NCBI GenBank assembly: GCA_002050355.1
Contig: MWYY01000030.1
Coordinates: 1 to 64,000 of the forward strand
Reading direction: 5' to 3'
From: Acidobacteria bacterium 28-9
Lineage (GTDB): Bacteria; Acidobacteriota; Blastocatellia; Pyrinomonadales; Pyrinomonadaceae
DNA length: 64,000 nt
Part shown: positions 3,175 to 44,071 of the stretch, one piece after another
Layout of the letters: each line of letters opens with the position of its first letter
How positions within the stretch are numbered: the stretch's first letter is position 1
Program-made: the position numbers and the translations under genes
The notes under the pieces: model-generated
Database searches by the model: none
The model's input: only the letters and a program-made list of their open reading frames with translations
What the model was told of the DNA's origin: nothing

Positions 3175-3212
3175 TTTATTACGCTCAAGAAATTTTTCGA
3201 CGCCGATTTTTC

Positions 3213-5803: not shown

Positions 5804-5851
5804 TAAAAAAATTGTTTACATCTGCAACGCCGGCAAACGGCTGGTTGAAGA

Positions 5852-6967: not shown

Positions 6968-7064
6968 AAAGTGACTCTCTAAATAAGGTAAATTCTTTAC
7001 CATTAGAGAAAGTTTTAATTATTAAAGTTTTTCACCCCGGTAAATTGCTATCTGCTTTTTTTGC

Positions 7065-8096: not shown

Positions 8097-8123
8097 CGTA
8101 TCATTTTTCGATTTACCTTTCGG

Positions 8124-8288: not shown

Positions 8289-8331
8289 ATATTTGTGTCC
8301 AAAAGGGATATTTATAGTTGTTTGAATTTGA

Positions 8332-9321: not shown

Positions 9322-9344
9322 ATTTATTTCCGCTTCTTTTTGTG

Positions 9345-10871: not shown

Positions 10872-10891
10872 ATTACTCTCCGTTATCAGCG

Positions 10892-27219: not shown

Positions 27220-28380
27220 TCAACCAGAAATACTATTCAGAAGTTTTATGAGCACTTTTTCGTAGCTAAACGAATTAATAGCTAACTCACGTGCCCCTTT
27301 GCAATGCTTGTCGTATTCACTGTTTATCTTTTCGATTCCGTCTAAAACCTCTTCTTTTGAAGAAAAAGCTAAAAGCCCTCTGCCACATTCGATGAATTTT
27401 GAAAAACCCGTTTCCTGAGTCAGAACCGGACGCCCGCTTGCTAAATAACAGGCGCTTCTTTCGCTGAACCACCCGCTTAGGCTCGAAGTATAACCGTGTT
27501 TAGCGATTGTCCATTCCGCTTTTGAGTTTTGAATAAACTTTTGATATGTCCAGGGCGTGCGCGTCGGAATTAACGGATTTGTTATTTTCCAATTTTTACT
27601 TTGCAAAAAATCTCCAGGCGCGGTTTCGCTTCCCAAAGCTAACTCGAATTTTTCCGTGGTCATTTGCGGTAAATCTATATATCCGTCAAACGAAGCGGAT
27701 TTCATACCGAAAGTTTGTCCGTTGTATTCAAGCGTTCGATAACTGTCCCATTGGATAACAGTTGTCCAGCGATTATTTTTATTACCTTTGGTAAGTTTCC
27801 AAGCATCAAGCACAATTGGCTGGCGAGTCGGTTTCCAATCGAATCCGTCATCGGGAATTGAACAATCCTCGGCGTCAAAATTCTCGCCAAAGGAAAAAAA
27901 ACAATTGTGTTTTGCGGCGAGTTTGTGAGCATTTTCGTCCGTTAAATGACGAATTTGCGTAAAAGCCGGGTCGGTGTCGATAAAAACTCTTTTGGGAATC
28001 GGCAGCAGCCAATCGCGCATGGGATTGACGCCGGAAAGGTTTAACAAAACATCGGTTGATGCAAAAAAATCGAGCATTTCCGCTTTGGTTTTGCCGAACC
28101 ATTGATTAGTGTGCGAGTCATAGTAGGTCCAGAGATTATTTAAGTTTAATTTTTTGAAAGCCTTATCAATAAAACGCAAGCCATAGCTCGGGTCGGTATT
28201 CATTTCATTGGTCAGAGGATTGTAGCAAGCCGCATAATCGTCGCTGTCTTCGAGGAAAACAACGTCGTGTCCGAGTTTTTTCAGTCCTAAAACGTATTGC
28301 AGATGATGCCACGCCAGACCGCCGAGCGGACCGCGAACGATGTAGCCAAGGACTAAAACTTTCAGTTTTGAGTTATTCAT
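27220..28380 (-). CDS. GT-B glycosyltransferase-like protein (paralogue A)
   Basis: The 386-residue protein starts KLKVLVLGYIVRGPLGGLAW, a GT-B-like first strand, and ends in a CgeB/Glyco_trans_1_2-like domain with GWFSERSACYLASGRPVLTQ followed by ETGFSKFIECGRGLLAF (about residues 319-355). It shares this architecture with paralogue B at 32595-33782, including D(T/S)DPAFTQI and SFGENFDAEDC/TFGENIGADDC stretches. I do not know the reaction. It is the last gene of the KS/ACP operon and probably transfers a sugar or binds a glycosylated intermediate. Confidence 0.72.
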   Translation of the reverse strand: MNNSKLKVLVLGYIVRGPLGGLAWHHLQYVLGLKKLGHDVVFLEDSDDYAACYNPLTNEMNTDPSYGLRFIDKAFKKLNLNNLWTYYDSHTNQWFGKTKAEMLDFFASTDVLLNLSGVNPMRDWLLPIPKRVFIDTDPAFTQIRHLTDENAHKLAAKHNCFFSFGENFDAEDCSIPDDGFDWKPTRQPIVLDAWKLTKGNKNNRWTTVIQWDSYRTLEYNGQTFGMKSASFDGYIDLPQMTTEKFELALGSETAPGDFLQSKNWKITNPLIPTRTPWTYQKFIQNSKAEWTIAKHGYTSSLSGWFSERSACYLASGRPVLTQETGFSKFIECGRGLLAFSSKEEVLDGIEKINSEYDKHCKGARELAINSFSYEKVLIKLLNSISG

Positions 28381-28404
28381 TTGAACAATCTAAATTAATT
28401 GATG

Positions 28405-29754
28405 TTAATTGAATTTCGCTTTTATGGGATAGAGAAAAGCGCTTAGCTGAACTCCGATTGCCTCAACCGAGAAACGCTCTTCTATTGATAATCGTGCTCT
28501 TTTGCCCATTTGACGACTTAGTATCTCGTCGTCTAAAAGCCGACCCAAGGCTGTAGCAAAAGCCTTAACGTCTCCCTTCTGAACAATTAAGCCGCCTGAT
28601 TCTTCGCCGTCTTTCAGAAGATCCTTCATACCCGGAATGTCAGACGCAACAACGGGTAATTGGCATGACATCGCTTCAAGCGGTGCGACCGCAAATCCTT
28701 CGTGGCGTGAAGGAAAAACATAGACATCGGCTGCGCTTAAATACCGTCTTATGAGTGCATGATCATTTAAATACTTTTCCAACCAAATTAAACCTTGCGG
28801 CTTCATCTCTGCAATTCGCTCGCGTAGTTCATCTGCATTATTTCCTGAACCTACCAATAAAAGCTGAAGTTCTCGACCCAATCGCTCATGATAAATACTT
28901 TGCCATGCTCGAAGTAAAATATCTAACCCCTTGCGCCGCAAATCAATGCGTCCGTGCCAGACAGCAACGCGAGCGTCTGGCGGTATTCCAAGCAAAGCCC
29001 TTGCCGTATTTCTCTCTTCTGCAACCCACTCATTTAAATCTACCGGGTTAAAAATTATGGCTATGTTTTCACCAGACACTCCATAACATACGCTTACCCG
29101 CTCTGCCTCGCTCCGTGTCGGAATTATCAAGCCTTGACTCGCCCTCAATGCCGAACGACGAAACAGCTTTTCAATGCGGCTAAGTGATTGGTTGCCCCCT
29201 TGAAAAGTGGCAAAGACAGGCAACTGCATCAAACGCCCTAACAGCAGACAAACATCAAAGCGTGCATGCTCGTATTCTTGGCACAACACGACACTACATT
29301 GCTCGCGCCGCAGTTCGCGCGCAAGATAAATAGGTGGCGTCGAGAGATATGAAGCTAATTGCTTAACCACCGACCAAAAGACACGCTTTATTCCGCGCAC
29401 ATTGCCGACTGCTTCTTCAACAGTAGCAGCATACGGGTTCTGTAAGCCTCGCCGAAGCGTGCGGTAGATAAACGGCGCAGGCAATACGCAAATTGTCGCA
29501 CCAGTCGCGGCATGGCGAAAACGAGATGGTTTCATTACGCGAGCCGATACACAGAAAAGGACTGTCCGAATGTTTGCTGATTTTAATGCGTCAATGTACC
29601 CGAACATCCACCCGCCCGATGTTTCATTACAAAATGACTCGAATGAAACCCCGATATTATCAAGGTAATCTTCGAGTAATTGACTCCAATCAATAAGGGC
29701 AACAATTGCTGGCGGCTTAGGCGCACGCCTTGTCTGAAATTCTTCGTTTCTCAA
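28405..29754 (-). CDS. Glycosyltransferase family 4 (GT-B)
   Basis: The 449-residue protein begins with TTG, overlapping the upstream acyltransferase stop as TTGA. It carries the GT4 features: FNPVDLNEWVAEERN, AVWHGRIDLRRKGLDILLRA and the EX7E block in FPSRHEGFAVAPLEAMSCQL (about residues 361-380). Its position among acyltransferases and a KS/ACP pair suggests it glycosylates the product of this operon. The donor sugar is unknown. Confidence 0.85.
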   Translation of the reverse strand: MRNEEFQTRRAPKPPAIVALIDWSQLLEDYLDNIGVSFESFCNETSGGWMFGYIDALKSANIRTVLFCVSARVMKPSRFRHAATGATICVLPAPFIYRTLRRGLQNPYAATVEEAVGNVRGIKRVFWSVVKQLASYLSTPPIYLARELRREQCSVVLCQEYEHARFDVCLLLGRLMQLPVFATFQGGNQSLSRIEKLFRRSALRASQGLIIPTRSEAERVSVCYGVSGENIAIIFNPVDLNEWVAEERNTARALLGIPPDARVAVWHGRIDLRRKGLDILLRAWQSIYHERLGRELQLLLVGSGNNADELRERIAEMKPQGLIWLEKYLNDHALIRRYLSAADVYVFPSRHEGFAVAPLEAMSCQLPVVASDIPGMKDLLKDGEESGGLIVQKGDVKAFATALGRLLDDEILSRQMGKRARLSIEERFSVEAIGVQLSAFLYPIKAKFN

Positions 29755-30422
29755 AGAATGTTCTCCCGCAATGCTTGTTGACGTGCTTCTTCAGTGTCGT
29801 CCGCATCTAAATAACGAACCAAGCGCGAAGGATTTCCGACCACAATCGCATAAGGCGGAACGTCTTCGGAAACGATGGTTTTGCTCCCGACTACACAACC
29901 GCGACCGAGAGTTACGCCGGGCAGAATTACCGCGTCGAATCCGACCCAGACATTATCCTCCAAAATGACCGGGCGCGGTGAGTCTATCGGCAATAACCGT
30001 CGCCATTTATCTTTTGCGGCAAACCGCAAAACTTCGCGTCGTTTTTCAATTGGAGCATTGCCGAAATCAGCCCAAGTGTCCGTAATCACCGAACCCCACG
30101 CAATCAAGCAATGATTGCCGATAGTTACTTGGTCGTTGCAAACGATAATCGTTCCATTTAGTACCGTGTAGGAGCCAACTTTGACCGTGCCGTCTTCGCC
30201 GACAACAAACGATGCGCGATCATATGTGCCGCTTGCTTCGCCCAGTTCAAAACCGACCTTACGCTTCGAATGAAACGCCGCAAACCCGTAAGACGTATCG
30301 AGATAGATATTTTCGCCAAGCAGGACATTCGCCGGAATTCCGCCGGAATACCAATCGTATTCGATAAATTTTCGCCCGCCGCGGGCAGTTGCCTGACCGG
30401 TTTGAACAAAGTTTTTTCTCAT
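29751..30422 (-). CDS. Left-handed beta-helix (hexapeptide repeat) acyltransferase 1
   Basis: The 223-residue protein has repeated hexapeptide turns (VGSYTVLNGTIIV, VTIGNHCLIAWGSVI, VILEDNVWVGFDAVILPGVT) and the typical end CVVGSKTIVSEDVPPYAIVV, as in LbH acetyltransferases that use CoA or ACP thioesters. Its start overlaps the preceding gene as ATGA. It is related in sequence to the neighbour at 30419-31018, so the two look like an old duplication. A CATRA-like O-acetylation of a sugar is the simplest role, but ACP-borne acyl chains are also possible given the operon's ACP. Confidence 0.85.
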   Translation of the reverse strand: MRKNFVQTGQATARGGRKFIEYDWYSGGIPANVLLGENIYLDTSYGFAAFHSKRKVGFELGEASGTYDRASFVVGEDGTVKVGSYTVLNGTIIVCNDQVTIGNHCLIAWGSVITDTWADFGNAPIEKRREVLRFAAKDKWRRLLPIDSPRPVILEDNVWVGFDAVILPGVTLGRGCVVGSKTIVSEDVPPYAIVVGNPSRLVRYLDADDTEEARQQALRENIL

Positions 30423-31018
30423 CTGTTTACCACCCGCGCTGGATTTCCAGCGACTTCTGTTCCGGGCGGAACGTCTTCGATAACCAACGCTCCCGGCGCA
30501 ACCATCGCGCCTGCGCCGATTCGCACACCCTTTAATACCGTTGCGTTAAAACCAATCCAGACGTCGTCTTCGATGTCTACCGGTTTTATCGAAATCATCG
30601 GTCTGTGGCTGCGATTGCCGACCGGCGAAAGAGCAATCGTATCTGCCAGACGCGCCGCCGGCTTGACCGGATGAAAATCCGAATCGGCAACGGTTACGCC
30701 GCCGGCAATCAAGACTCGCGCCCCGATTGAAATTCGCTCCGAACAAACCAGAGAGGCGTTGGCAATGTATGTGTAATCGCCGATTTCGATCAAAGCGTTT
30801 TCTTCCGCCGCGAGCGAAGTTCGCCAAAAAGTAATATTACTTCCGGCACGAAGCCCGACGGGAAGCGCGGAAAAATAATGCTTGAAGCAAAACGAAGAAT
30901 CAAGCACCGTGTTTTTCCCAACCTCAATGTTGACGGGAATCTTTCCGGGAAACCAATCGCCCGGCAAGCTAATGCCCGGTTTCAATTCGTAAAAAATACG
31001 CTGTTGCTCGTCTGACAT
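30419..31018 (-). CDS. Left-handed beta-helix (hexapeptide repeat) acyltransferase 2
   Basis: The 199-residue protein has the hexapeptide core IEIGDYTYIANASLVCSERI and VLIAGGVTVADSDFHP, the latter resembling the catalytic His loop of XAT-class acetyltransferases, followed by VWIGFNATVLKGVRIGAGA. Its stop overlaps the next gene's start as ATGA. Homology with its downstream neighbour suggests either a heteromeric trimer or two successive acylations on the same scaffold. Confidence 0.85.
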   Translation of the reverse strand: MSDEQQRIFYELKPGISLPGDWFPGKIPVNIEVGKNTVLDSSFCFKHYFSALPVGLRAGSNITFWRTSLAAEENALIEIGDYTYIANASLVCSERISIGARVLIAGGVTVADSDFHPVKPAARLADTIALSPVGNRSHRPMISIKPVDIEDDVWIGFNATVLKGVRIGAGAMVAPGALVIEDVPPGTEVAGNPARVVNR

Positions 31019-31081
31019 AAATACTGTCTAAAGTTTGTTTTAATAATCAATAGACTCGAAAGTCTTCTCAAAAATTAGCGT

Positions 31082-32299
31082 CTATTCCCAGCAGCGAAAC
31101 ACCAAAACCGCATTCAAACCGCCAAAGGCAAAAGCGTTTGACATCGCGTAACCAATTGATTTTTCGCGCGCTTCATTCGGCACAACGTCGAGATTGCATT
31201 CTGAGTCAGGCTCAACAAAATTCGCTGTCGGAGGCAAAACGCCGTTTTTAATCGCCAAAGCCGTCGCCACTGCTTCAATCGCGCTGGTTCCGCCAAGTGC
31301 GTGACCGTGCAGCGATTTCGTCGAGCTGACGGCGAGTCTATCAGTGTGTGAGCCGAACACACCGCGAATCGCCGCCGCTTCCATTGGGTCGTTTGCCGCC
31401 GTGCCTGTCCCGTGGGCATTGATGTAATCAATTTGTTCGGGCGCAACTTCAGCGTCGGCAAGCGCAAGTTTCATTGCCCGTTCAGCTCCAGCTCGCTCCG
31501 GTTTGGTGATGTGGCTCGCATCCGCCGACATTCCGAAACCCACGATTTCACCGTAAATTTCCGCGCCGCGTTTTTCGGCTGATTCGAGCGTTTCCAAAAC
31601 GAGCATCGCACCGCCTTCGCCGAGAATCATTCCTTGCCGGTTCTTCGAGAACGGGCGACAGGTGTCGGGCGCAACCACACGAATTGCCTCCCATCCTTTA
31701 AGATAGCCGTAGCTGAAAGGCGTTTCGCTGCCGCCTGCAATCGCCAACTCGGACATACCGCTACGAATCATTAAAAAAGCATTGCCGATGGCGTGATTTC
31801 CCGAAGCGCAAGCGGTCGAAATCGTAAAAGTCGCTCCGGTTACGCCAAATTCTATTGATATATTGCTTGCCGCCGAGTTCGGCATAATTCGCGGAATAGC
31901 TAATGGATGCAAGCGATTGCGGTTTTCTCCATAAAGTTCAAATAAGGCATTTTCGTTAGAGTGTTGTCCGCCGATGCTGGTGCCGGTTACGATGCAAGTT
32001 CGCTGCCGCAATTCGTCCGTCCATTCAATTCCCGCATCCTTAACCGCTTCGCGTGCAGCAATCAAACCGAATTGTGCGAAACGGTCGAGCAAATCCAAAT
32101 CTGTATTTTCAAAGTAATTTAGCGGATTGTAGTTTTTAACTTCCGCGCCGTTCTGAAAGCGCAATTTTGTGCGGTCAACTAACTGAATTGGGGCAATCCC
32201 GTCCTTGCATTCACAAATAGCCCGCCAAAACTCGGCGACATTTTTCCCGATGCTGGAGATAACGCCCAAACCCGTTATCACAACTCTACGTTTTTCCAT
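31082..32299 (-). CDS. Beta-ketoacyl-ACP synthase (FabF/KAS II-like)
   Basis: The 405-residue protein (ATG at 32299; a longer frame would overlap the acp gene) has a complete thiolase-fold active site: Cys164 in STACASGNHA, His296 in NAHGTGTAANDP, Lys328 and His333 in KSLHGHALGG. It therefore should condense a malonyl-ACP unit with an acyl starter. The length is that of FabF (about 413). It sits directly after its own acp gene rather than in a fab operon, pointing to specialised fatty-acyl or polyketide-like metabolism instead of housekeeping synthesis. Confidence 0.92.
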   Translation of the reverse strand: MEKRRVVITGLGVISSIGKNVAEFWRAICECKDGIAPIQLVDRTKLRFQNGAEVKNYNPLNYFENTDLDLLDRFAQFGLIAAREAVKDAGIEWTDELRQRTCIVTGTSIGGQHSNENALFELYGENRNRLHPLAIPRIMPNSAASNISIEFGVTGATFTISTACASGNHAIGNAFLMIRSGMSELAIAGGSETPFSYGYLKGWEAIRVVAPDTCRPFSKNRQGMILGEGGAMLVLETLESAEKRGAEIYGEIVGFGMSADASHITKPERAGAERAMKLALADAEVAPEQIDYINAHGTGTAANDPMEAAAIRGVFGSHTDRLAVSSTKSLHGHALGGTSAIEAVATALAIKNGVLPPTANFVEPDSECNLDVVPNEAREKSIGYAMSNAFAFGGLNAVLVFRCWE

Positions 32300-32312
32300 A
32301 ATGGTTTTCTCG

Positions 32313-32555
32313 CTAGACAGCAACGTTTAATTGATCCAAACTTTCGACCACGTCACCAACTTTCCGAATTTTCATTACTTCTTCATCTGGAATCGACACA
32401 TTAAACGCTTCTTCAAAATCGTAGACTAGCGAGAGCGCGGCTAGAGAGTCAATGTCCAATTCTCTAAACGTTGTTTCAAGCGTAATTTCATCAGCCGAAA
32501 TGTTTTTGCTATCGGCAATAATTTCGGATACTTTTTGAAAGACTGATTCAGACAT
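32313..32555 (-). CDS. Acyl carrier protein
   Basis: The 80-residue acidic four-helix protein carries the phosphopantetheine site LDIDSLAALSLVYDFEEAF, with Ser37 in the DSL motif. This fits a stand-alone carrier protein of type II systems. It is followed by the ketosynthase with a 13-bp gap, so the two are certainly co-expressed. No holo-ACP synthase is present in the window; the housekeeping AcpS or Sfp-type enzyme would have to modify it. Confidence 0.93.
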   Translation of the reverse strand: MSESVFQKVSEIIADSKNISADEITLETTFRELDIDSLAALSLVYDFEEAFNVSIPDEEVMKIRKVGDVVESLDQLNVAV

Positions 32556-32594
32556 ATAAAACTCCTAAGTTACAAAAATAAGACGGTTAAAATG

Positions 32595-33782
32595 TTAAGT
32601 TAATTGTTTCAACACCGCGCTCAAAACTTTCTTGCCATCGAAAAAATCTTCGGCTATTTGACGCGCCGCGCGCGCGTGTTTCTCAGGATTGGCGGTTGCT
32701 TGTTGAATCGCGTCTATGACGCTTTTCCGATCGTCAAAAGCGAAAAGACCCATTCCCGCTGGAATAAATTTCGACCACCCGGTTTCTTGAGTAATAACTG
32801 GTCGCCCCATTGCCAGATAACATGCCGAACGGCACGAAAACCAACCCGTGCGTCCCTTAACATAAGTTTCTTTGGCTACTGAAAATTCGCCGAAAGAATT
32901 TCTAATAAAATTTTGATAATCAATCCAGTTTTCAGCGCAAACATCGGGACTTAAAACCAGCCAGCCATTTTTTTTCACCTCGTCAATCGGGAAGGCATCG
33001 TTTCCGGTCTCGCCTGTTTGACCAACGGCGACTGCGAGTTTGGTTCTCGGCATAGCCTTCGGAAGGTCAATAAACTTGCGGAATTCGACATCTTTTTGTC
33101 CCCAACGCTCGCCATCGTAATTAAGATTTTTGGCGGCTGTCCAGTTCATCAAAGTTGTCAAAAGTCCTTTTTTGTCGGGCAGAGTTGCTTTCCAATAATC
33201 CAAACAAACCGGCTGACGCGTTCTGCGCCAACTTAAATCACAAGTCGGAATGCGGCAGTCGTCTGCGCCGATGTTTTCACCAAAAGTAAAAAGATAGTTA
33301 TGCGCGTCAACAGTTTGTTTCAGATTCGACTTACCGGGCGTGAATATCTGTTCCGAAAGATACTGAATTTGTGTGAACATCGGGTCGGAATCAATCAGTA
33401 TGCGTGCCGGAATTTGCCCGTATTCATCTCGCATAAAAGTTGAACAAGAAATGTTCACGAAAACGTCCGCCGTCCGTGCAATCTCTTTGACTTTTTCCTC
33501 GCTTAAGCCAAAACATTTCCCTGACGCTTCATCGCGGTAAGCCCAGCGTTCAGGCATTCCGAAGAATTCCATTACCGCTTGCAAATGTTTGACGCACGAA
33601 GAACAATCGTTCCAATCGCTGCCCGCTTTTTGATAAATCGGATAAAGCCGCGTGTCTTCAATATAAAAAACATCATGACCGAGTTCGGCGAAACCAACCG
33701 GATATTGCACATAATCCCACGTAACGCCGCCGGCAGGCAATAGCCCAAGGAATCCGCCGACAATGATACGCAACTTTTTCAT
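32595..33782 (-). CDS. GT-B glycosyltransferase-like protein (paralogue B)
   Basis: The 395-residue protein begins KLRIIVGGFLGLLPAGGVTW and has the C-terminal stretch GWFSCRSACYLAMGRPVITQ followed by ETGWSKFIPAGMGLFAF, matching paralogue A at 27220-28380 over its whole length. It contains several Cys residues (DCSSC near 60, CFGLSEEK) absent from A. The two paralogues bracket the operon's core, which suggests related steps such as sequential transfers. No named family with known activity is recognised. Confidence 0.72.
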   Translation of the reverse strand: MKKLRIIVGGFLGLLPAGGVTWDYVQYPVGFAELGHDVFYIEDTRLYPIYQKAGSDWNDCSSCVKHLQAVMEFFGMPERWAYRDEASGKCFGLSEEKVKEIARTADVFVNISCSTFMRDEYGQIPARILIDSDPMFTQIQYLSEQIFTPGKSNLKQTVDAHNYLFTFGENIGADDCRIPTCDLSWRRTRQPVCLDYWKATLPDKKGLLTTLMNWTAAKNLNYDGERWGQKDVEFRKFIDLPKAMPRTKLAVAVGQTGETGNDAFPIDEVKKNGWLVLSPDVCAENWIDYQNFIRNSFGEFSVAKETYVKGRTGWFSCRSACYLAMGRPVITQETGWSKFIPAGMGLFAFDDRKSVIDAIQQATANPEKHARAARQIAEDFFDGKKVLSAVLKQLT

Positions 33783-33792
33783 TCACTTTAGC

Positions 33793-34770
33793 CTAATCAT
33801 TTGCGCTCACATACCAGCGCGAAGGATTTACGTCTTCCACCGCAATTGTCCGGTCGAGAATGTGAATGACAAAAGGGAAATCATAAGCATCACGCGCAAA
33901 CCCTAAATCTTGGACGACTGGTTCCATTAACGGTGTTGTCAACACGGCGACTTTATGAATTACTTCCTTGCCTCCTCCCGTTACAGACTTTTCGTGCGCG
34001 ACGTTGCTCGCAGCAGTAAGTGTGGCATGCATGGATTCACCTGCATCTGCGCAGAGCATATCGCAAATAAGCCATTGACGATCGCCCTTATGACGCGAAG
34101 CAACAAGTCCGACCAACTCTCCGTTTCTTTCGATCGCGGTCGTTGTGAAATTAGGGTCAGCGAGTTTCCAGCGCAATGTCGCGCAATCGCGCACGAGTGT
34201 ACAACTATAAAGCCGCGATGACTTTTCCCATAACCGTTCTACGCGCTCATCCCACGTTTTGAGAGGAGCGGCGGTGTAGGCTTTATTCAAAGCCATCGGC
34301 TCATTAAGAGGGACGGGCAGGCTCCACAGCGGAAATGAACCGGTCTGAAAATGAGGGAACATCTTAAAAAGTCTTGTCCAGCGCGGATCAGGAACCATAT
34401 AAATGAGTTGATTTCCCATCGCTTGTAACTCTTCAACAGCGCAATCATACATAGCACCGGCAGGATAATCGAGCGGATGTCTCATAACGAAGGCATCACG
34501 CATCATCGGAGTCACGATAGTTCCGAAAGGACGCACCGCGCGTAATTGTTTGCCGTTCACCATTACGCACGTTTGGATAAAGCAGAATTGTCCAACCATC
34601 TCACCGGACTCAGTATCTGTAGCAACGACAATACACAGTTTATCGAATGGCGCGGCATCAAACCGACGGCGCAAATCGTCGAACCAATCACCCCAGTCGG
34701 ACGCCTCGCGCCAAAGCCGTTCGACTTCGGGCAACATTGCGCTTGTATGAAACTTACAATCAATTGCCAT
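33793..34770 (-). CDS. GNAT-fold acyltransferase-like protein
   Basis: The 325-residue protein reads as an N-acetyltransferase-like chain: CIVVATDTESGEMVGQFCFI and a second similar strand pattern ERNGELVGLVASRHKG about 150 residues later, which suggests two GNAT-like domains. The start ATG at 34770 is preceded by AGGCGG. It is the first gene of the KS/ACP operon and lies 10 bp upstream of paralogue B. Acyl transfer from CoA or from the operon's ACP onto an amine is a reasonable guess; catalytic residues are not certain. Confidence 0.68.
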   Translation of the reverse strand: MAIDCKFHTSAMLPEVERLWREASDWGDWFDDLRRRFDAAPFDKLCIVVATDTESGEMVGQFCFIQTCVMVNGKQLRAVRPFGTIVTPMMRDAFVMRHPLDYPAGAMYDCAVEELQAMGNQLIYMVPDPRWTRLFKMFPHFQTGSFPLWSLPVPLNEPMALNKAYTAAPLKTWDERVERLWEKSSRLYSCTLVRDCATLRWKLADPNFTTTAIERNGELVGLVASRHKGDRQWLICDMLCADAGESMHATLTAASNVAHEKSVTGGGKEVIHKVAVLTTPLMEPVVQDLGFARDAYDFPFVIHILDRTIAVEDVNPSRWYVSAND

Positions 34771-34981: not shown

Positions 34982-36198
34982 CTAAAAATCGACGGGTAAC
35001 GACTCTAACCCGCGGAACAACAGACTTGATCGCCATTGTAAAAGATCCGGCGAGCCTTTCAGTCGTAAGTGAGGCAAGCGACTCAACAGCGTGTTAATAG
35101 CAATTTGTGCCTCCATACGGGCAAGCGGCGCGCCCAAGCAAAAATAGATTCCCTGCCCGAATGCTAAGTGTTTTCGCGGGTAATGTCCAGCGTGTCTGCA
35201 TTTCTGAATACTGTCTCATCACGGTTCGCCGAGCCAATCACTCCTAACGCTACTTCTCCGCGCTGAATCGTCAACCCGTGAAGTGTCACATTTTCACGGG
35301 CGTAGCGTTCAGAGGATATAAGTCCCGGAGATGTATAGCGCAACAACTCTTCGATGGCAGATTTAATCAAGGACGGGTCGCGGCGCAGTTTCTCCATCTG
35401 GTCTGGATACTCGACAAGTGCCAGCATTCCGTTGCCAATAAGATTGACCGTGGTTTCGTGTCCCGCAACAAGCAATAAAAAAACCATCGCCAGCAACTCG
35501 TCTTCATTTAATTTGTCGCCAGCCTCCTCTGCTACAATCAATGCGCTGACCAAATCATCCTTTGGAGCTGCACGGCGCATCTTGAAAAAGCGACGCAAAT
35601 AGAGATTAAAACGCTCCAAAGCCGGAAAAATGCGCCAATTATTGTTGTGAAACGGATATACTGATGCGATGACCTTCGACCATTTATGAAACTGTTCACG
35701 GTCTTCAATTGGCACACCTAAAATTTCGGTGATGAGCGTCATCGGAAGCGGAAGCGCGTAATCGCGGATGATGTCCATTTTGCCCTTGCTTGCAACTATA
35801 TCAAGCAGTTCATCCGCCAGAGTTTGTGTCCGCTCACGCATCTGCTCAATCAGGCGCGGCGTGAATGCCTTATGAACTAATGCCCGCAGCCGTGTATGGT
35901 CGGGAGCATCTAATTCCAGTAGATTGCGCTCCAGCGGACAAAGTAACGGATGCATTTCCGGTCGCTTGTTAAGCTGTACGGGCGTCATGCCGTTGTAGGG
36001 GCTATTGGCAAAGCGTTCGTCCTTCAGCAAAGAAACGACATCATCATCATAGCGCGTAACCAGCCAGACGTTTGTTTTATCCGGCAGAGCGGTTTGATAA
36101 ACAGGCTGCTCGGCACGCAATTGCGCGAAAAACGGAAATGGATTCGCCCTAAATTCTGAGCTAAGAATGTCCACTTGTTGTAAAGTATTCATTTGCAT
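34982..36198 (-). pseudogene. Cytochrome P450, frameshifted just before the heme loop
   Basis: From the ATG at 36198 the frame shows P450 features: LLVAGHETTVNLIGNG (I-helix, AGHET), the ExxR in IEELLRYTSP, and the start of the heme region (DETVFRNADTLDITRENT). It then stops at 35164. The -1/+2 frame continues without a break from 35169 with LAFGQGIYFCLGAPLARMEA and a normal C-terminus ending at 34982. One missing base in the A run at 35171-35174 would restore a protein of about 404 residues. The heme Cys is present; the usual His of FGxGxHxCxG is Tyr. Real mutation or a sequencing error cannot be separated here. Confidence 0.82.
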
Positions 36199-36340
36199 AA
36201 GTCTTTCCCAAATAAGGTGAAAGCGTTTTTGTCGCGCTAAGAACCTAAAATTTGTAACATATTTAATATCTTTTTGAGTTTTTCGAGTATAGACTTTTAG
36301 CAATCATAAAACATTATTCAGGCTGACGTACTAATTATTC

Positions 36341-38950
36341 TTAAAAACTGTTGCGAAAAAGGTAGGAAGTTTTGATAAAAAATGTGCGCTCGTTTTGGCG
36401 GAATCCGGGTTCGTATCTGCCCGAAAAAGGATTGTAACCGTTTCGATTAAAATCGTCATTATACCCGGCGTAAACGGCGGTGCCGGGATTCGGTGTCCAG
36501 CCGAAGAGAAATTGCGGGCGCAGGCGCGTCGATACGGTTGAATAATCAATTCGCGTTCGGGCAAATGTGTTGCGCGTAAATTGATAAGTTGAGCGGAAGT
36601 TGAAAATGTTGTCGTCAAAAGCAGTCAATCCCGTATCATCGCGCACGAGCTGCTGCTTGTTATAGTTGAGCGAAACCTGCAGTGCGTTGGTCGCCTGATA
36701 GCGCAAAGCCGTTTCGATATAAACCTGGTCGCCCGCGCCCGGGTCAAACGGATTTTTGGGGTCGAGAAGCGCGGCAGGACTGACGCGCGGGTATTTCGCG
36801 CCTGCGCCCAAATCGTAATCAAGCTGTCCCGCGCCGTAGCTTAAAAGAAAATAGCCGTAAAACTGTTTGACCGGAGTGGTTTCGAGAAAGCCGTAAACTT
36901 CGCGCCGGTTAGCCGAGCGTTCCGAATCTGTTCCAAAGAAAGCACCCGGTCGCGTGGCGGTTCGATTTGCTCCGAATTCGCGCTCGAAAACGCGCTCGTA
37001 ACCGAATTTTAATCCTCCGCCTATATTTGTCTGCCGTTGCAAAGCAAACATTTGCTGCGTGTTGGAATTCCAGTTTTGCATTCGTCCCTGCCAGTCGTGG
37101 CTGACGGCGCTTTCGTTTGAAAAACGCTTGAAAATTATTCTTTCTTTCGGTTCTTGTTCGGTTTGATAACGAACGAGCGAGCGATGTTGATTTGTATCGG
37201 TGCGCGTCGTAAATCCAACATCGGCGCGGTAATCCCGCATAAATCCGATGCCATTTAGTTGAAGAGTTAAATTGCGCTCCGCGCGGTCAATCGAATACGA
37301 ATAACCGAAGCCGTTGCCCGTGCGGTAAATGTTTTCGTCCAAATCCGGGTCGTAGAAAAATCGGCGCGAGGTTGTGCCGGTGAGTTGAAATTCGGCGCTC
37401 GTTTTCGTGTCGAGGCGAAACCGTCCGTCAAATCCGCCGGTGTTGTTGTGACGTTCGATGAAATTGTAAGTCGTGGCAAAAAAGCCGAGATTATTTTCTC
37501 TTCCGACGTCGCGTTTGAGGCGAAAGATTCCGATGTTGGCATTCTTATCAACAAAACGCTCGATGCCGCAGACAATGCTTGAATCAGCGAGCCGTTTTTT
37601 TTGACAGTCGCGCAAGTTTTCGCGCTCGTCCAAAGAATAATTGCCCGGCGCGTTGTCTGAAGCGTAAAGCACGCCGAAAGTATTTCGCCCGCGTCTGCCC
37701 GTAAGTTTAGCGGCAACGTCCGGGTCAACAATGGCGCGGGTGTTGACGACGTTCATCCGGGTTTGAAAAACATCTATACGTTCGAGAAAAAACGGACGTT
37801 TTTCCGGGTAAAAAATTGGGAAACGCTGGTTGGCGGTAACTACAAGTGCATCGGCTTCGACCTGCGCAAAATCTGGATTTAAAGCGAAATCGAGTGTCGT
37901 TGTTGGCGTTAAACTAAACTTGGCGGTTAAGCCTATTTCGCCTTTGACGTTTTCATCAACAAAGCGTCCCGAATCAATTGCGTTCGGCGCAAGTTGCGAA
38001 GGCAGAACGCTGCGAACTCGCCGACCGGATTGGCTCAAAGTAAGGCTCGGTATAATTTCAAGCTGGCGCGTTGTCGAAATGTTTTCAAGCCCGGTGATAT
38101 GTCCGGTTTGATTAAGCGAGCCGGAACGATTGCGGTCAATCGGCATCCACGAATCAAGTTCATTATTATTGTGTTTCACGCGGCGAAAAAGATGAATGCC
38201 CCAGAGTTTATTTTCTCCCGCTTCATAGCGCAGGGACTTAAAAGGAATTGCCGCTTCAACCGTGTAACCGTCCGGGGTTAAAACGCCTTTTGATTCCAAC
38301 TGCAAATCCACGCTGTAATCTTCGCCCCGTCCTTCGGTTAAAGTTCCGTCGGCTTGAACGCCGAGCGGATTAAAAAAAATCGTGTAAGCCTGTCTTTGGT
38401 CGTTGAAAGTATCGAGATAAACGCCGACGTAATCGTCGTTGAAAACCTGGTCGCGCCGCGCTAAACTCGCGCGTACGGTGTCTCTGTCTTGCTTGACGCG
38501 GAAAGCGATGTAAAGATTTTTTTCGTCGTAGCCCATCAATACTTCGGTCTCTGCGGACGGCGCGATGTTATCGCCCGGCTGCGTTTGCAGAAACTCACCG
38601 AAGAGTGTTGCGCTCGACCATTCGCTTTCGTTTATTTGACCGTCAACGATAGGCGGCGCATTGAAGCGCGGAATGTAAACCGGTGAGTCTTTACTCGCGT
38701 AACGCGACGCGACGCTTATGCCGTCGGCTTTTTCAACGGTAATTTTCGATTTGTTTGTCTCGGCGGGCTGCGTTAAAGAGTTTGCTTCAGTGTTTTTAGA
38801 ACTAGCGCCAACAATTCTCAAACGGGTAAAAATGCTTTCCTCAGCGGTTGGTCGCGGAGCAGGTTGAGCGGTTTTGGGTGATGGTATTTGGGCAACAGCA
38901 TTAGAAAAACAAAGAACGATACAAATGAAAGCGAGCGAAACGATTTTCAT
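36341..38950 (-). CDS. Secreted CBM9-like / DUF5916 outer-membrane barrel protein
   Basis: The 869-residue protein (ATG at 38950; an upstream TTG is less likely) has a signal peptide ending near SNAVAQ. A CBM9-like domain follows (PPIVDGQINESEWSSAT, then YDEKNLYIAFRVKQDRDTVR), and then a DUF5916-type barrel that closes with a C-terminal FFIKTSYLFRNSF. Proteins of this kind are outer-membrane beta-barrels of unknown function, common in Bacteroidota and Acidobacteriota. It is downstream of an ABC exporter and a glycosyltransferase fusion, so glycan binding or export is possible. Confidence 0.82.
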   Translation of the reverse strand: MKIVSLAFICIVLCFSNAVAQIPSPKTAQPAPRPTAEESIFTRLRIVGASSKNTEANSLTQPAETNKSKITVEKADGISVASRYASKDSPVYIPRFNAPPIVDGQINESEWSSATLFGEFLQTQPGDNIAPSAETEVLMGYDEKNLYIAFRVKQDRDTVRASLARRDQVFNDDYVGVYLDTFNDQRQAYTIFFNPLGVQADGTLTEGRGEDYSVDLQLESKGVLTPDGYTVEAAIPFKSLRYEAGENKLWGIHLFRRVKHNNNELDSWMPIDRNRSGSLNQTGHITGLENISTTRQLEIIPSLTLSQSGRRVRSVLPSQLAPNAIDSGRFVDENVKGEIGLTAKFSLTPTTTLDFALNPDFAQVEADALVVTANQRFPIFYPEKRPFFLERIDVFQTRMNVVNTRAIVDPDVAAKLTGRRGRNTFGVLYASDNAPGNYSLDERENLRDCQKKRLADSSIVCGIERFVDKNANIGIFRLKRDVGRENNLGFFATTYNFIERHNNTGGFDGRFRLDTKTSAEFQLTGTTSRRFFYDPDLDENIYRTGNGFGYSYSIDRAERNLTLQLNGIGFMRDYRADVGFTTRTDTNQHRSLVRYQTEQEPKERIIFKRFSNESAVSHDWQGRMQNWNSNTQQMFALQRQTNIGGGLKFGYERVFEREFGANRTATRPGAFFGTDSERSANRREVYGFLETTPVKQFYGYFLLSYGAGQLDYDLGAGAKYPRVSPAALLDPKNPFDPGAGDQVYIETALRYQATNALQVSLNYNKQQLVRDDTGLTAFDDNIFNFRSTYQFTRNTFARTRIDYSTVSTRLRPQFLFGWTPNPGTAVYAGYNDDFNRNGYNPFSGRYEPGFRQNERTFFIKTSYLFRNSF

Positions 38951-39134
38951 ACGGAAAGTTTTTAATTTTGACAAGTTAGAATTTTTAGGACGGTTGCCGG
39001 GAAAAAATTGCTAAAATTTAAGTTGTTATAACCGACGCCGAATTAATAAATATCACACCTAATCAATTTATGACAACAATTTAATTTCCGTCTGTAACTT
39101 TAAAGTTTTGCATTCGTTCCGGAAAACAAAACTT

Positions 39135-40937
39135 TTACATTGCGGCGATGTGCTGATGTTTGTAAAGATTTGCATAAACCTTGCCTTCCGAAAGCAAGGA
39201 CTCGTGCGTGCCGCGCTCGACAATTTGTCCATCTTTTAAGGTGATAATCTGGTCGGCGCGCTGAATTGTAGATAAACGATGCGAGATTATAAAAGTTGTT
39301 TTGCCCGTCATTAAAGTTGATAGAGCCTTGAAGATATTGGCTTCCGTATGCGCGTCGAGCGCGGAAGTAGGTTCGTCAAAAATGATAATTGGGGCATTTT
39401 TGAGCATTGCGCGGGCGATACTTATACGCTGGCGTTCGCCGCCGGAAAGTGACGCGCCGCCTTCGCTGATAACGGTTTCGTAACCTTCGGGCAAGCGCGA
39501 GATAAATTCGTGTGCCTGCGCTAGTTTTGCGACTTCGATAATTTCTTCGCGTGATGCGCCCGGACGCCCGAAAGCGATATTGTCGGCGATGCACACCGGA
39601 AATAGAAAGGGCTCCTGCAAAACAAGCGAGATGTTTTCACGTAGCGAATTCAATTTGATGTTTTGAATGTCAATGCCGTCAATCAAAATTCTGCCCGCCC
39701 AAGGGTCATAAAAACGCGAAAGCAAAGAAACAAGCGTGGTTTTACCCGCGCCGGTCGCGCCAACGAGAGCCGTAACTTGTCCGGGCAGCACGCGAAAGGA
39801 AATATCCCGCAAAATGGTGCGCGGCTCTCCGAGTTCGTTTTCGTAACCGAAACTTACGTTTTCAAACGAGATTTCGCCGTGTGTCGCGACGAGCGGACGC
39901 GCGTTTGGTTTTTCCGCGATGATTTCGTCTGAATCAAGAATCTCAAAAACGCGGCGACCGCGCGCACCGAGCATGATAGAAGTTCCGACCGCGAGCGTCA
40001 GCGAATTGACTAATGTATAGAGTGAAGTCAGATAACCGAGAAAAATAAACAAATTACCAATCGTAAGTTTTCCGCTCAAAACATTTTGCGCTCCGAAACC
40101 GAGCAAAACGGCGGCTGCTAAAGCGGTTATCAAGGCGGAGAGTTGACCGTAGCCGAGAGAAACTTGATTGGCGATTTTGTAAGCATTGCCGAATTCGGCG
40201 GCTCGCTCGGCAAGTTTTTTTTGCATAAATTGTTCGCGGGCAAATCCTTGAACAACCTTAATAGCCGATAAAGTCTGCTGCATAAAAGCCATCAACTCGC
40301 CCTGCGTTTTATATTGCCGGTCAGTTGTTTCGGTCATCAGCTTGGAAAAAAACAGCAGCGAGATACCAAGCAAGGGAACAACCGCCGCCGCAATTAAAGC
40401 GAGCGTCGCGTTAAGCTGCGCCATTATGTAAAACATTGCGCCGAGACAGACAAGCGAGGTAATGACGGGAAGCGCGATTTGAGCGACGACAAAATAAACG
40501 ACGTATACATCTGCATTAACTCGCTGCAAAAGGTCGCCGATTTTGTTACGCCCGTAATACGAAAGCGAAAGCTGCTGCAGTTTGTGGAAAAGGTCAAGCG
40601 AAAAATCATAGACCAGGCGTTGAGCCAGACTAATGGTCATATTCGCTACAAACAGCGAGACAAGGGCGCTGCCCACTGCCAGTAAAACTGCCAGTCCGAT
40701 GCTCCACCACAGCAATTGCTCTTTGCTTAAAAAGAGCGCGTCGTTACCAAAAAATTGTGTAATAAATGTGGGAAGCGGCTGGCTTGTCAAAACATTGTCC
40801 AGCACGATTTTAAATGGCAGCGGTTTGGCAACTTCAATAACGACGCCGAAAAGCGCGACGGATAAAAGAACCAGAAACCGTTTCCAGTAACTCGCTGAAT
40901 AACAAAACAGTCGCCAAAGTATTTTTAGATCTTTCAT
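39135..40937 (-). CDS. ABC transporter, fused permease and ATPase (MsbA/LmrA type)
   Basis: The 600-residue half-transporter has an N-terminal six-helix membrane domain (about residues 15-320) and a C-terminal nucleotide-binding domain: Walker A LVGATGAGKTTLVSLL, signature SLSGGERQRISIARAMLK, Walker B PIIIFDEPTSALD and the H-loop FIISHRLST. Such exporters dimerise and move lipids or glycolipids across the inner membrane. It lies 6 bp downstream of the glycoside hydrolase-GT2 fusion, so it probably exports that enzyme's product. Confidence 0.9.
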   Translation of the reverse strand: MKDLKILWRLFCYSASYWKRFLVLLSVALFGVVIEVAKPLPFKIVLDNVLTSQPLPTFITQFFGNDALFLSKEQLLWWSIGLAVLLAVGSALVSLFVANMTISLAQRLVYDFSLDLFHKLQQLSLSYYGRNKIGDLLQRVNADVYVVYFVVAQIALPVITSLVCLGAMFYIMAQLNATLALIAAAVVPLLGISLLFFSKLMTETTDRQYKTQGELMAFMQQTLSAIKVVQGFAREQFMQKKLAERAAEFGNAYKIANQVSLGYGQLSALITALAAAVLLGFGAQNVLSGKLTIGNLFIFLGYLTSLYTLVNSLTLAVGTSIMLGARGRRVFEILDSDEIIAEKPNARPLVATHGEISFENVSFGYENELGEPRTILRDISFRVLPGQVTALVGATGAGKTTLVSLLSRFYDPWAGRILIDGIDIQNIKLNSLRENISLVLQEPFLFPVCIADNIAFGRPGASREEIIEVAKLAQAHEFISRLPEGYETVISEGGASLSGGERQRISIARAMLKNAPIIIFDEPTSALDAHTEANIFKALSTLMTGKTTFIISHRLSTIQRADQIITLKDGQIVERGTHESLLSEGKVYANLYKHQHIAAM

Positions 40938-40943
40938 TGCCGT

Positions 40944-43523
40944 TTATAAAACGCTTTGCGCTCCAGCATTTTCTCTCGCTTCTCCCGAGTTTGCACCGAA
41001 CACCGATATTTGCGAAATAAGAATTTCTTCTGCTAAAAACGCCGCCGAAAAATTGCGCATCGCCCGCGCCGCGTCGAAAATAATCATTGCTTCGAGAACG
41101 AGCGAAAACAATCCGAGAATTGCTGCTGCAATAAACGCACTGTCAAATGCGGCAAATAGCGCGAGCATTGAAAGAATACTCAACAATACAATTCCTGTTC
41201 TTGAATAGCGCAAGCGGCAGCAAACCCGAACAAACTGTTTGCCCGCGCCGTGTTCTTCGACGGTAAAAAGTCCGCGGCAAGCGGCTAGTAATCCGCCTCT
41301 CGCTTCCAAATCCCAGCGCTCAAATTCGCCGCCGCGCCGGACGCGAACAGTGGATTTGATTAGTTCTGTCTCGATTAATCGAATCCAATCTTCGTTTGAT
41401 TTCCATACTTCCGTCCAAAAGGAAAATTCACGAGATTTCGGAACGAGAAATTGAAGTGTTAATTTGTCAAAGCAGCATCTTCGCCACGGCGTCAGACCGT
41501 GCCTCAAACGTCCGTAAAGTCTGGCGACCGGCTGCATTAAATGAAGAATCGTCGTCAAACCCCAACGCCAAAGTTTTTCAAATTCGGTTTTAGGCGCGGT
41601 CGTGTAGACGGCTTTTGACGCGCTCACGCCTGCCTGAGCCAAAAGAATAAGTACTGACGCAAATAAAACGGGAAGCACGAGAAAAAGCGGCTGCCATAAT
41701 AATCCGAGAAGCAAAATTATGACTAAGCCGGCTATAAAAAGATAGTATTCCGGCATCAGCGGAATCGCCGAAAGTGTGTTTGAAGCCGGTTGGTAAATTG
41801 ATTGAAAAGGCGCCGTTCCCCAAACGCCGTGAAAAATCGAGTCTTTTTTTGACTTTAAGGGCAGAGTCAAACCTTTCCCGTAAATCGTTCCGCTCCAATT
41901 CAGATGTCCAAGACCGTTGTATTTTTCAGACCATTTTTTCTCTAAAAGCGCTTCCGCCTTGCCGTAACCTTTTTGCTGTTTCCAATACATCTTGACCGAA
42001 TTCCGGCAATGATGCCAGACAAATGCCGCAGGGTGAAAGCCAATCGTTTTTCCGGTTTGCTGAATTCTCCAGCACAAGTCAACATCGTCTCCGGCGGCGT
42101 GATAAACGGGGTCGCATCCGCCGACTTCCAAAAGCGCATCGCGCCGGAATGCCATATTGCAGCCGGGAATATGCTCGGCGATTTCGTCGGTCAGCAAAAC
42201 GTGGACAGGACCGCCCGGAGCATTAGCGATGCTGTCGGCAATTATACCGTCGCCGGCAGGCGAGATATTAGGACCGCCCATGCCCGCGTGATTCGTCGTC
42301 ATAAAAGCGTGCGCCAGATATTGCAACCAATGCGGGTCGGGATAAGCGTCATCGTCAATATACGCGACTATTTCGCCGCTCGCCGCTTTCATTCCGGTAT
42401 TACGCGCGCTGCTCAGACCTCGATTAGGCGTGTTAATCAAACGAACCGGATATTCGCGTACAATATCCGCCAGCGAATCGGTTGAGCCGTCATTGACGAC
42501 AATAACTTCAAAATCCGGATAGACTACTCTCTGCAAACCTTCCATACAATCTCGAATCGTAGCCGAGCCGTTATAACTGCAGACCACGACCGAAATTTTC
42601 GGAAAATTTTCACTCACGGGAAAAGGTGATTCCCGAAAAGCCTTTGAAACCGTGTGCAGAGCAGGCTTTGGACGACGTTCGCGGTCGGTCAAACCGAAAT
42701 CCCAATCTTCGATTACAAATCCGCCCCGCCACCATTCGTCCGTCCAGGCAAAAATAAATGCTCCGGCACAACCTTTTGAAAAAACCGAACGTATTTGCCA
42801 ATCCAAAGAATCCGCCTGAACCGCTTCGCCATTGCGCCGACTGTCCAACCCGATTTCCGCCATCACAATCGGTCGGTCGCCGCACAGATTGTGCAGGCGA
42901 GCCAGATACGATTCGAGTTTTTCTTTCGATTCCAAATAGATGTTAAAGCAGTCAAAATCAGTGAAAGATGTATCTAAATATTCGGTCGTAGGATAGTTGA
43001 CGTAAGTGAAAAGACCGTTCGGGTCGGCTTCTTTGCCGGCTTCGTAAAGCCGTTTGAGAAATTCTTCGATTCGATTGTGACCATACCAGCGAACGATTGA
43101 CGCGGGTATCTCATTACCGAGCGTATAAGCCAGTATCGCCGGATGATTTTTACACGAACGGACACTTTCCCGAACCTGATTCACGATTCTTTTTACGCGG
43201 TTTTCGTCGTCAAGAAATGTAATGTGCTGCTCCCAGGGCAGCCCCACAAGAACTTTGAGGTTGTATTTCTCGGCATAGTCGAGTAGATACAAAGGCGGAA
43301 CCGTATAAGTTCTAACCGAGTTGATGCCGAACGAAGACATCAGAGAGAAATCCTTTTCGACAAGACTCGGCGCAAGAAAATTAAACTCGTCTTTATCCGG
43401 CTGAAATGTGCCGTATGTTACGCCGCGAACATAAAATTTTTCATTGTCGACTACAAGAAATTTGCCTTTAATCTGGGGATGCGGTCTAGTGCTGCTTTCT
43501 ACGGTCGAAAGAAGTGCATTCAT
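40944..43523 (-). CDS. Glycoside hydrolase-like domain fused to a membrane GT2 glycosyltransferase
   Basis: The 859-residue protein has an N-terminal (beta/alpha)8 domain like GH2/GH5 catalytic cores. Glu138 in YTLGNEIPAS fits the acid/base and Glu223 in IVMAEIGLDS the nucleophile; GAFIFAWTDEWWRGG closes the barrel. From about residue 310 a GT2 domain follows: ISVVVCSYNGSATIRDCMEG, VVNDGSTDS, AYIDDDAYPDPHW (DxD) and GCNMAFRRDALLEVGGCDPV. Two hydrophobic clusters of membrane helices occur at about 600-650 and 770-820. The arrangement suggests one enzyme that both extends and trims, or otherwise edits, a glycan. Confidence 0.85.
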   Translation of the reverse strand: MNALLSTVESSTRPHPQIKGKFLVVDNEKFYVRGVTYGTFQPDKDEFNFLAPSLVEKDFSLMSSFGINSVRTYTVPPLYLLDYAEKYNLKVLVGLPWEQHITFLDDENRVKRIVNQVRESVRSCKNHPAILAYTLGNEIPASIVRWYGHNRIEEFLKRLYEAGKEADPNGLFTYVNYPTTEYLDTSFTDFDCFNIYLESKEKLESYLARLHNLCGDRPIVMAEIGLDSRRNGEAVQADSLDWQIRSVFSKGCAGAFIFAWTDEWWRGGFVIEDWDFGLTDRERRPKPALHTVSKAFRESPFPVSENFPKISVVVCSYNGSATIRDCMEGLQRVVYPDFEVIVVNDGSTDSLADIVREYPVRLINTPNRGLSSARNTGMKAASGEIVAYIDDDAYPDPHWLQYLAHAFMTTNHAGMGGPNISPAGDGIIADSIANAPGGPVHVLLTDEIAEHIPGCNMAFRRDALLEVGGCDPVYHAAGDDVDLCWRIQQTGKTIGFHPAAFVWHHCRNSVKMYWKQQKGYGKAEALLEKKWSEKYNGLGHLNWSGTIYGKGLTLPLKSKKDSIFHGVWGTAPFQSIYQPASNTLSAIPLMPEYYLFIAGLVIILLLGLLWQPLFLVLPVLFASVLILLAQAGVSASKAVYTTAPKTEFEKLWRWGLTTILHLMQPVARLYGRLRHGLTPWRRCCFDKLTLQFLVPKSREFSFWTEVWKSNEDWIRLIETELIKSTVRVRRGGEFERWDLEARGGLLAACRGLFTVEEHGAGKQFVRVCCRLRYSRTGIVLLSILSMLALFAAFDSAFIAAAILGLFSLVLEAMIIFDAARAMRNFSAAFLAEEILISQISVFGANSGEARENAGAQSVL

Positions 43524-43994: not shown

Positions 43995-44071
43995 TGGTCG
44001 GGGCGGCAAGATTCGAACTTGCGACCTCACGGTCCCGAACCGTGCGCTCTACCAGGCTGAGCCACGCCCCG
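43995..44071 (-). tRNA. tRNA-Pro (anticodon CGG), CCA encoded
   Basis: The minus strand folds into a full cloverleaf: acceptor CGGGGCG/CGCCCCG, D-arm with AGCCTGGTAG, anticodon arm CACGG-TTCGGGA-CCGTG with anticodon CGG, and T-arm GCAAG-TTCGAAT-CTTGC. The discriminator is A and the 3' CCA is encoded (43995-43997). Length is 77 nt. It reads CCG codons. Confidence 0.95.

Follow-up and report, generated by a model that had tools for sequence, protein, structure and literature searches.

A predicted NodE-like ketosynthase and its carrier protein within a putative exported-glycan cassette of an acidobacterial genome

The rhizobial proteins NodF and NodE are an acyl carrier protein (ACP) and ketosynthase (KS) pair that borrows the remaining chain-building steps from primary metabolism. 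Both are required to give Nod factors their alpha,beta-unsaturated acyl chains (PMC3557214, PMC4618531). The cluster nodA2-hsnT-nodEF of Rhizobium tropici holds acyltransferases together with NodE and NodF (PMC3557214), and the nodFEG operon of S. meliloti includes its own reductase gene (PMC4618531). In rhizobial lipid A, acpXL/lpxXL provide a specialised carrier and a transferase for a very-long-chain acid (PMC3557214). Here we describe an ACP and a KS encoded in the window, the whole stretch of 64,000 nucleotides that was analysed (contig MWYY01000030.1, positions 1 to 64,000) from the metagenome-assembled genome (MAG) of Acidobacteria bacterium 28-9. By analogy with NodF/NodE, our preferred reading, held with modest confidence, is that a NodFE-like acyl module is built into an exported-glycan cassette, in which a GNAT-like protein would attach the chain to the glycan, a hexapeptide protein (HEX1) would acetylate it and an ABC transporter would export the product.

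An earlier note on this DNA had described eight near-contiguous minus-strand genes as a compact operon. All eight open reading frames lie where it placed them, between 27220 and 34770, with gaps of 10, 39, -11, 63, -4, -4 and 24 bp in order from the GNAT-like gene to the glycosyltransferase GT-B 'A'. They form the distal end of a glycan/export cassette that is larger and reaches about 43523. The genes of this cassette are the following (window coordinates); the Pfam domain scan covered 15 genes between 26541 and 45729.

40944..43523, minus strand: GH2-like TIM barrel fused to a membrane GT2 (GH-GT2), 859 aa, anchor gene of the cassette (PF02836 and PF00535)
39135..40937, minus strand: MsbA-type ABC exporter of the same cassette (PF00664/PF00005; TIGR02204/TIGR02203 below cut-off)
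33793..34770, minus strand: GNAT-like protein (tandem-GNAT acyltransferase-like, 325 aa; AlphaFold2 fold and Foldseek)
32595..33782, minus strand: GT-B glycosyltransferase 'B', CgeB/Glyco_trans_1_2-like, 395 aa (AlphaFold2 GT-B fold; orthologues of 46-63% identity in several phyla)
32313..32555, minus strand: dedicated ACP, 80 aa, with DSL serine (PF00550, E 9e-13)
31082..32323, minus strand: KS of the NodE-containing clade, 413 aa (PF00109/PF02801, E 1e-47/2e-36; tree; residues)
30419..31018, minus strand: HEX1, left-handed beta-helix acetyltransferase-like, with catalytic-type His (PF00132)
29751..30422, minus strand: HEX2, hexapeptide paralogue without catalytic-type His (PF00132)
28405..29754, minus strand: GT4 glycosyltransferase (PF13692, E 3e-34)
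27220..28380, minus strand: GT-B glycosyltransferase 'A', 386 aa, paralogue of 'B' (38% identity to 'B'; 81% to the copy in congener G004)

The catalytic triad of the KS (Cys172, His304, His341) is intact and the ACP keeps its DSL serine, in agreement with the earlier note. In a KS tree of 39 rows, the window KS, the NodE rows, the KS of Xanthomonas sacchari and those of acidobacterial ACP-KS pairs came together in a 16-row branch (support 100/98). In a tree of 47 rows, the window KS and NodE fell into a clade of 20 rows (97/95) that excluded the 22 FabF-type rows, the additions over the 16-row branch being Paracoccus, one Streptomyces and one Novosphingobium KS. The divergent rows G430_2, G430_2_2, G429_2 and G429_2_2, present in an earlier tree, were left out of both. 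Constraining NodE with the 22 FabF-type rows was rejected in the 47-row tree (approximately unbiased test, p-AU 7.1e-7); a tree holding exactly the 18 NodE-like rows together was not rejected (p-AU 0.147), yet was not the best tree. The residues W211, C222, S226 and A399 occur in 18, 18, 16 and 17 of the 18 NodE-like rows and are all present in the window KS, whereas the FabF-type rows have F, S, D and G at these positions (22, 22, 20 and 22 of 22); these markers are descriptive only, since they were taken from the tree's own alignment. W211 corresponds to F202 of E. coli FabF and A399 to G399 (mature numbering). F202 is named together with I108 as an acyl-pocket gating residue, and a G399A variant is reported to crosslink much like the wild type (PMC7138838). 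By phylogeny and residues, the window KS belongs with NodE, apart from FabF.

The earlier note had correctly stated that no ketoreductase, dehydratase, malonyltransferase or thioesterase stands alongside: none was found by Pfam among the 15 genes scanned, and a weak match to the ketoreductase model came from an epimerase of a separate gene group (8332-9321). The note set the genes against type II fatty acid, aryl polyene and resorcinol clusters and missed the precedent of NodF/NodE. The idea that no known system employs such a pair without a full fatty-acid synthesis set is not supported: NodF/NodE does, and the window KS lies in the NodE clade.

It is very improbable that the KS and ACP are the housekeeping fabF/acpP of the organism or a recent copy of them. 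This explanation draws on the fact that the assembly yielded no other small free-standing ACP and no other KS with an adjacent ACP. Relatives, however, carry a separate fabH-fabD-acpP-fabF locus (L067, in a congener, and L068) with a KS of another lineage, and the window genes are not orthologous to the acpP-fabF of that locus. An AcpP-like ACP adjoins 19 of 19 FabF-type rows with flanks tested; 10 of 10 NodE-like loci tested have an ACP within 700 bp, of a type other than AcpP-like. The window ACP is 40% identical to the housekeeping AcpP of congener G004 and 27% to NodF, and it scored below the cut-off of all 17 NCBIfam models that it matched. In the window's own MAG (86.6% complete), a DNA search for the housekeeping locus gave short matches only, of which the window KS itself was the longest; PF00698 (FabD) had no match (found in 10 of 14 control genomes). 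Since the entire locus including FabD is absent from this incomplete MAG, the missing locus is most simply an assembly gap. Both the separate clade of the KS and the separate locus in relatives speak against a housekeeping fabF/acpP, an identity that the earlier note had named as refuting its reading.

The gene set recurs as a cassette, which that note had named as a finding that would support it. The order GNAT, GT-B 'B', ACP, KS, HEX1, HEX2 is identical in the window, in L072 (a 7.9 kb contig of a Gemmatimonadota MAG) and in G362 (an Acidobacteriota genome that forms a single contig of 6.47 Mb and belongs to a class other than the window's). The combination of ACP, KS and close GT4 was found in one of the 80 best GT-B loci defined below (L072) and additionally in G362. 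The window GT4 has close relatives (44% and 59% identity) only in these two other KS-bearing cassettes, relatives at 23-26% in L108, L123, L130, L131 and L145 being taken as generic and not counted. The three cassette KSs form a clade in the trees (93/92; 89/83 with 39 rows; 92/81 with 47 rows). As to whether the neighbours vary at random between genomes, the answer is mixed: they are constant in the three cassettes but differ around related ACP-KS pairs found elsewhere.

This constant position bears on the alternative that the ACP-KS pair is merely co-operonic and that its product (a signal, or a precursor of a polyene or pigment) stays free instead of being joined to the glycan. The window KS shares Ala at the FabF G399 position with the polyene KSs Iga11 and ApeO (PMC7138838), and NodE-like pairs were also found away from glycan genes. 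Nevertheless, the pair lies between GT-B 'B' and HEX1 in all three genomes, accompanied by the close GT4, and no thioesterase, reductase or dehydratase that could partner it was found alongside. The locus also differs from aryl polyene and type II polyketide clusters, whose chain-length factor, ketoreductase and dehydratase were not found by Pfam in the 15 genes. We regard a free product as improbable. On the analogy with NodF/NodE, the pair probably extends and diverts a chain that would end on the glycan of the cassette.

The cassette that holds the pair consists of the GH-GT2 fusion, the MsbA-type ABC exporter, paired CgeB-like GT-B proteins, two hexapeptide proteins and a tandem GNAT. It occurs in several phyla, with core genes orthologous to those of the window and likewise clustered, and mostly without KS/ACP; the window version adds the ACP, the KS, the GT4 and a distinct GNAT. 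When GTDB contigs were scanned with a GT-B alignment, at least 532 stretches were confirmed, and counts were made on the best 80 loci. GH-GT2 was present in 35 of these 80 loci, 34 of which also had the ABC gene, and hexapeptide genes in 8. The other 45 had no GH-GT2 in the stretch examined (many were short or cut), which indicates that the GT-B family also exists apart from the remaining cassette. When 36 loci selected for GH-GT2 or KS were clustered, 7 proved to have epimerases and 4 had pyruvyltransferase-like genes, of which Pfam confirmed one. GH-GT2, the ABC exporter, GNAT, both GT-B proteins, HEX1 and HEX2 were found together, in somewhat differing order, in a Chitinophagales MAG, a Phycisphaeraceae MAG, Algoriphagus zhangzhouensis, Croceicoccus mobilis and the unclassified MAG L071. 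The ABC exporters of five GNAT-bearing cassettes including the window form one clade (100/99). In the GH-GT2 protein, E138 and E223 are invariant across four aligned homologues; we take them to be the two GH catalytic positions.

The distribution of the cassette is sporadic, since few genomes carried matches in surveys of class, phylum and order. Among 162 genomes searched in the window's class, only its own had a GT-B 'B' match above 41%, and among 396 evenly drawn Acidobacteriota only the window genome and G362 exceeded 50%. In the phylum of L072 (395 genomes), this level was exceeded by G427, which is the genome of L072, and by G680, in which no ACP or KS was found in the 18.6 kb stretch examined. 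In the order of G362, 162 genomes were searched with the GNAT, and G362 alone had a match (E up to 1e-15). Within the window cassette, GH-GT2 is 81% identical to that of congener G003, as GT-B 'A' is to its copy in G004, but the ABC exporter, HEX1 and GT-B 'B' are nearer to other phyla (59%, 66% and 63%) than to those of a congener (40%, 46% and 36%). These identities suggest that a module was exchanged behind a GH-GT2 that was already resident. None of the KSs found in six genomes with KS-less cassettes was more than 43% identical to the window KS (E up to 1e-60).

With respect to the enzyme that takes the acyl chain, HEX1, HEX2 and GNATs all exist without KS/ACP, so that presence alone does not decide. 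The GNAT-like protein was predicted to have a tandem-GNAT fold (AlphaFold2, pLDDT 87.1, pTM 0.84). Its nearest Foldseek neighbours were Eis-type acetyltransferases, and N-myristoyltransferases, which move long acyl chains, were also among them (best E 4.8e-15; TM-score at most about 0.65 by query length). GT-B 'B' was predicted as a GT-B fold (AlphaFold2, pLDDT 91.9) with GT4-type structures as closest PDB neighbours. The GNAT-like and GT-B-like labels of the earlier note are thus supported by fold for these two proteins, but not by family models: the GNAT-like protein matched no GNAT model of Pfam or NCBIfam, and PF13524 matched GT-B 'A' and 'B' below its cut-off. In the best GNAT tree, the three KS-bearing cassettes form one clade (87/91). 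The same grouping was rejected in the GT-B 'B' tree (p-AU 0.0056, in a set that contained one very long row) and in the HEX1 tree (p-AU 0.0099). The GNATs of the two other KS-bearing cassettes are 50% and 38% identical to that of the window and their GT-B 'B' proteins 55% and 52%, and the Chitinophagales cassette has a GT-B 'B' at 63% but a GNAT at just 33%. According to these comparisons, the GNAT type assorts with KS/ACP, whereas GT-B 'B' and HEX1 do not and HEX2 is undecided, and the tandem GNAT is the best candidate for moving the ACP-bound acyl chain.

Alternatively, HEX1 or HEX2 might receive the ACP-KS product, much as LpxA/LpxD would, and the GNAT would then have another task, for instance N-acetylation. 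Acyl-ACP is the substrate of LpxA/LpxD-type hexapeptide enzymes, HEX1 directly follows the KS, and a Paracoccus NodE-like ACP-KS pair adjoins an LpxD-like hexapeptide gene. We nevertheless consider this route unlikely. HEX1 and HEX2 are present in nine cassettes without KS/ACP (L069, L070, L071, L076, L077, L079, G680, L142 and L016), which makes them weaker candidates than the GNAT for a KS/ACP-dependent acyltransferase, and the HEX1 tree, though not the HEX2 tree, rejects a grouping of the KS-bearing cassettes. The catalytic-type His is found in 12 of 12 HEX1 but in 0 of 12 HEX2 proteins, and HEX1 scores better on small acetyltransferase models than on LpxA, all below cut-off (NCBIfam bit scores: DapD_Ac 67.6, WbbJ 62.7, LpxA 32.9). 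HEX2 accompanies HEX1 in all 12 loci compared and is possibly a non-catalytic partner.

Compared with the Nod-factor system, the window shares an ACP-KS pair near an acyltransferase, a glycosyltransferase and a hexapeptide acetyltransferase, with the KS in the NodE clade. The remaining components differ. Instead of NodC and NodIJ, the window cassette has GH-GT2, paired GT-B proteins and an MsbA-type exporter, and GH-GT2 matches NodC over a generic GT2 stretch only. HEX1 is 35% identical to NodL over only 121 positions. Neither NodA nor a NodF-type ACP was found in the cassette (hhalign for the former, 27% identity to NodF for the latter), and no NodB-type deacetylase domain was found among the 15 genes scanned, the remainder of the genome lying outside this search. 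Homology of the GNAT to NodA was not supported: hhalign of the GNAT alignment against NodA gave a probability of 0.1%, and PF02474 matches NodA but not the window GNAT. Judged by gene content and similarity, the window locus is not a Nod-factor locus.

Other NodE-like pairs, from Acidobacteriota, Xanthomonas sacchari and Paracoccus, have a KS 47-58% identical and their own ACP adjacent, but their neighbours differ. Of the NodE-like pairs, rhizobial ones included, several lie near an acyltransferase gene, which may be NodA, FemAB-like GNAT, LpxD-like hexapeptide, LpxL-like or GNAT with PIG-L. In a same-class genome (G058; L063 239-3606), ACP, NodE-like KS, GNAT and PIG-L deacetylase genes stand in a row, and L064 (G042) looked similar by eye. 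On a Xanthomonas sacchari plasmid (L211 4518-7218) the pair adjoins a FemAB-like GNAT gene, which was not supported as a homologue of the window GNAT, and on a Paracoccus plasmid (L221 4458-7206) the LpxD-like gene. Of the plasmid records matching the KS (best 30 of 1300), all but those of Xanthomonas sacchari, Paracoccus and Pseudorhodobacter came from Rhizobium and Sinorhizobium; the four rhizobial plasmid loci examined were nod clusters. In the relative G020 (L061 8135-12141), an ACP and two tandem NodE-like KSs lie beside a Lip_A_acyltrans gene, reminiscent of acpXL/lpxXL.

This last locus favours a further explanation, namely that the cassette is a known lipid modification, for instance of lipid A by very-long-chain acyl transfer as in acpXL, with the glycosyltransferases as bystanders. 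The window operon shares with acpXL/lpxXL the idea of a dedicated carrier and an acyltransferase. It differs in gene content, as neither a Lip_A-type acyltransferase nor a dehydratase gene was found in it, and the GT-B, GH-GT2 and ABC genes recur together without KS/ACP. We consider a known lipid modification quite unlikely.

The preferred reading, a NodFE-like module in a glycan/export cassette, would operate as follows. GH-GT2 and the GT-B and GT4 enzymes, judging from their families, would build a short glycan or glycolipid. Once loaded, the dedicated ACP would have its chain lengthened by the NodE-clade KS, while primary fatty-acid synthesis would lend the malonyltransferase, the reductase and the dehydratase, as with NodF/NodE. 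The tandem GNAT would then move the acyl chain from the ACP to the glycan, as its co-assortment and fold suggest. HEX1, perhaps with the His-less HEX2, may add small acyl groups such as acetyl, and the MsbA-type transporter would export the product. The logic proposed in the earlier note, condensation on a dedicated ACP followed by transfer to a sugar, is still the best reading, although its transfer step is a deduction. Since the key KS groups with NodE, the product is probably a fat-tailed (acylated) sugar not yet described.

Several observations weigh against this reading. Only three KS-bearing cassettes were found, two of them (window and L072) in MAGs, and the 40 kb examined around the cassette of G362 yielded no ABC gene. 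The window KS is 58-59% identical to those of the other two cassettes and nearly as close (55-58%) to free-standing ACP-KS pairs of its own family, so that it need not have moved with the cassette. The ACP is nearer to AcpP than to NodF, and the reductase gene of S. meliloti nodFEG has no counterpart at the window operon. No acyltransferase was recognised by eye beside the pairs in L059, L060 and L062. The link of the GNAT to the pair is affected as well: the cassette clades of GNAT and KS were not starred, the L072 GNAT row is a 215-aa fragment, the GT-B 'B' set held the very long row, the HEX2 tree did not reject the grouping (p 0.161), and in the ABC tree one GNAT-bearing cassette, L071, is an exception. 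GNAT homologues also occur in KS-less cassettes, which shows that this family is not strictly tied to ACP-KS.

These comparisons tie an uncharacterised glycan/export cassette of several phyla to the NodE ketosynthase branch and suggest as product class an acylated, acetylated oligosaccharide. They also place NodE among non-rhizobial ACP-KS pairs, several of them beside different acyltransferases, which bears on the origin of the Nod-factor acyl-specificity genes. A broader and distinctly more tentative proposal is that GH-GT2/GT-B cassettes make a non-rhizobial family of exported lipo-oligosaccharides, in which a NodE-clade KS builds the acyl arm on its dedicated ACP and a tandem GNAT attaches it. 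If so, Nod factors would be one specialised case of an older, widespread custom acyl tailing of glycans, and the product of the window cassette might serve as a signal or be a glycolipid of the envelope.

No name was found for the GH-GT2/GT-B/ABC cassette, and no prior description of it or of a NodE-like KS outside rhizobia was found among the matches listed from the open-licence PMC literature; given this coverage, the absence is weak evidence of novelty. Carriage on plasmids was not supported, as GT-B 'B' had no match in PLSDB at E 1e-5, and an ACP search of plasmids returned ordinary ACPs. The KS was not found in IMG/VR by a pattern scan that detects close relatives only, so that viral carriage was likewise rejected. 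A tRNA-Pro (cgg) at 43995-44071, followed by an inverted repeat, adjoins the start of the GH-GT2 gene. A tRNA-linked island was rejected, since no exact 12-base direct copy of the tRNA-Pro 3' end region was present in the window. The Rfam scan gave the tRNA alone at gathering threshold, and promoter and terminator scans remained at chance level.

Two genes interposed between the GNAT-like gene and the ABC exporter are of uncertain membership in the cassette:

35164..36303, minus strand: cytochrome P450 (PF00067)
36341..38974, minus strand: CBM9/DUF5916 protein (PF06452, PF19313)

The P450 reading frame stops just before the haem-binding loop, the sequence of which follows downstream in another frame, indicating a pseudogene or an assembly error. 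CBM9/DUF5916-like genes were found near the cassette in 5 of the 80 loci. An integrase-core transposase fragment lies at 14712-15182, and a separate polysaccharide gene group at 1123-12100 comprises a flippase, GT2, GT4, GT10-like protein, epimerase, radical SAM protein and methyltransferase.

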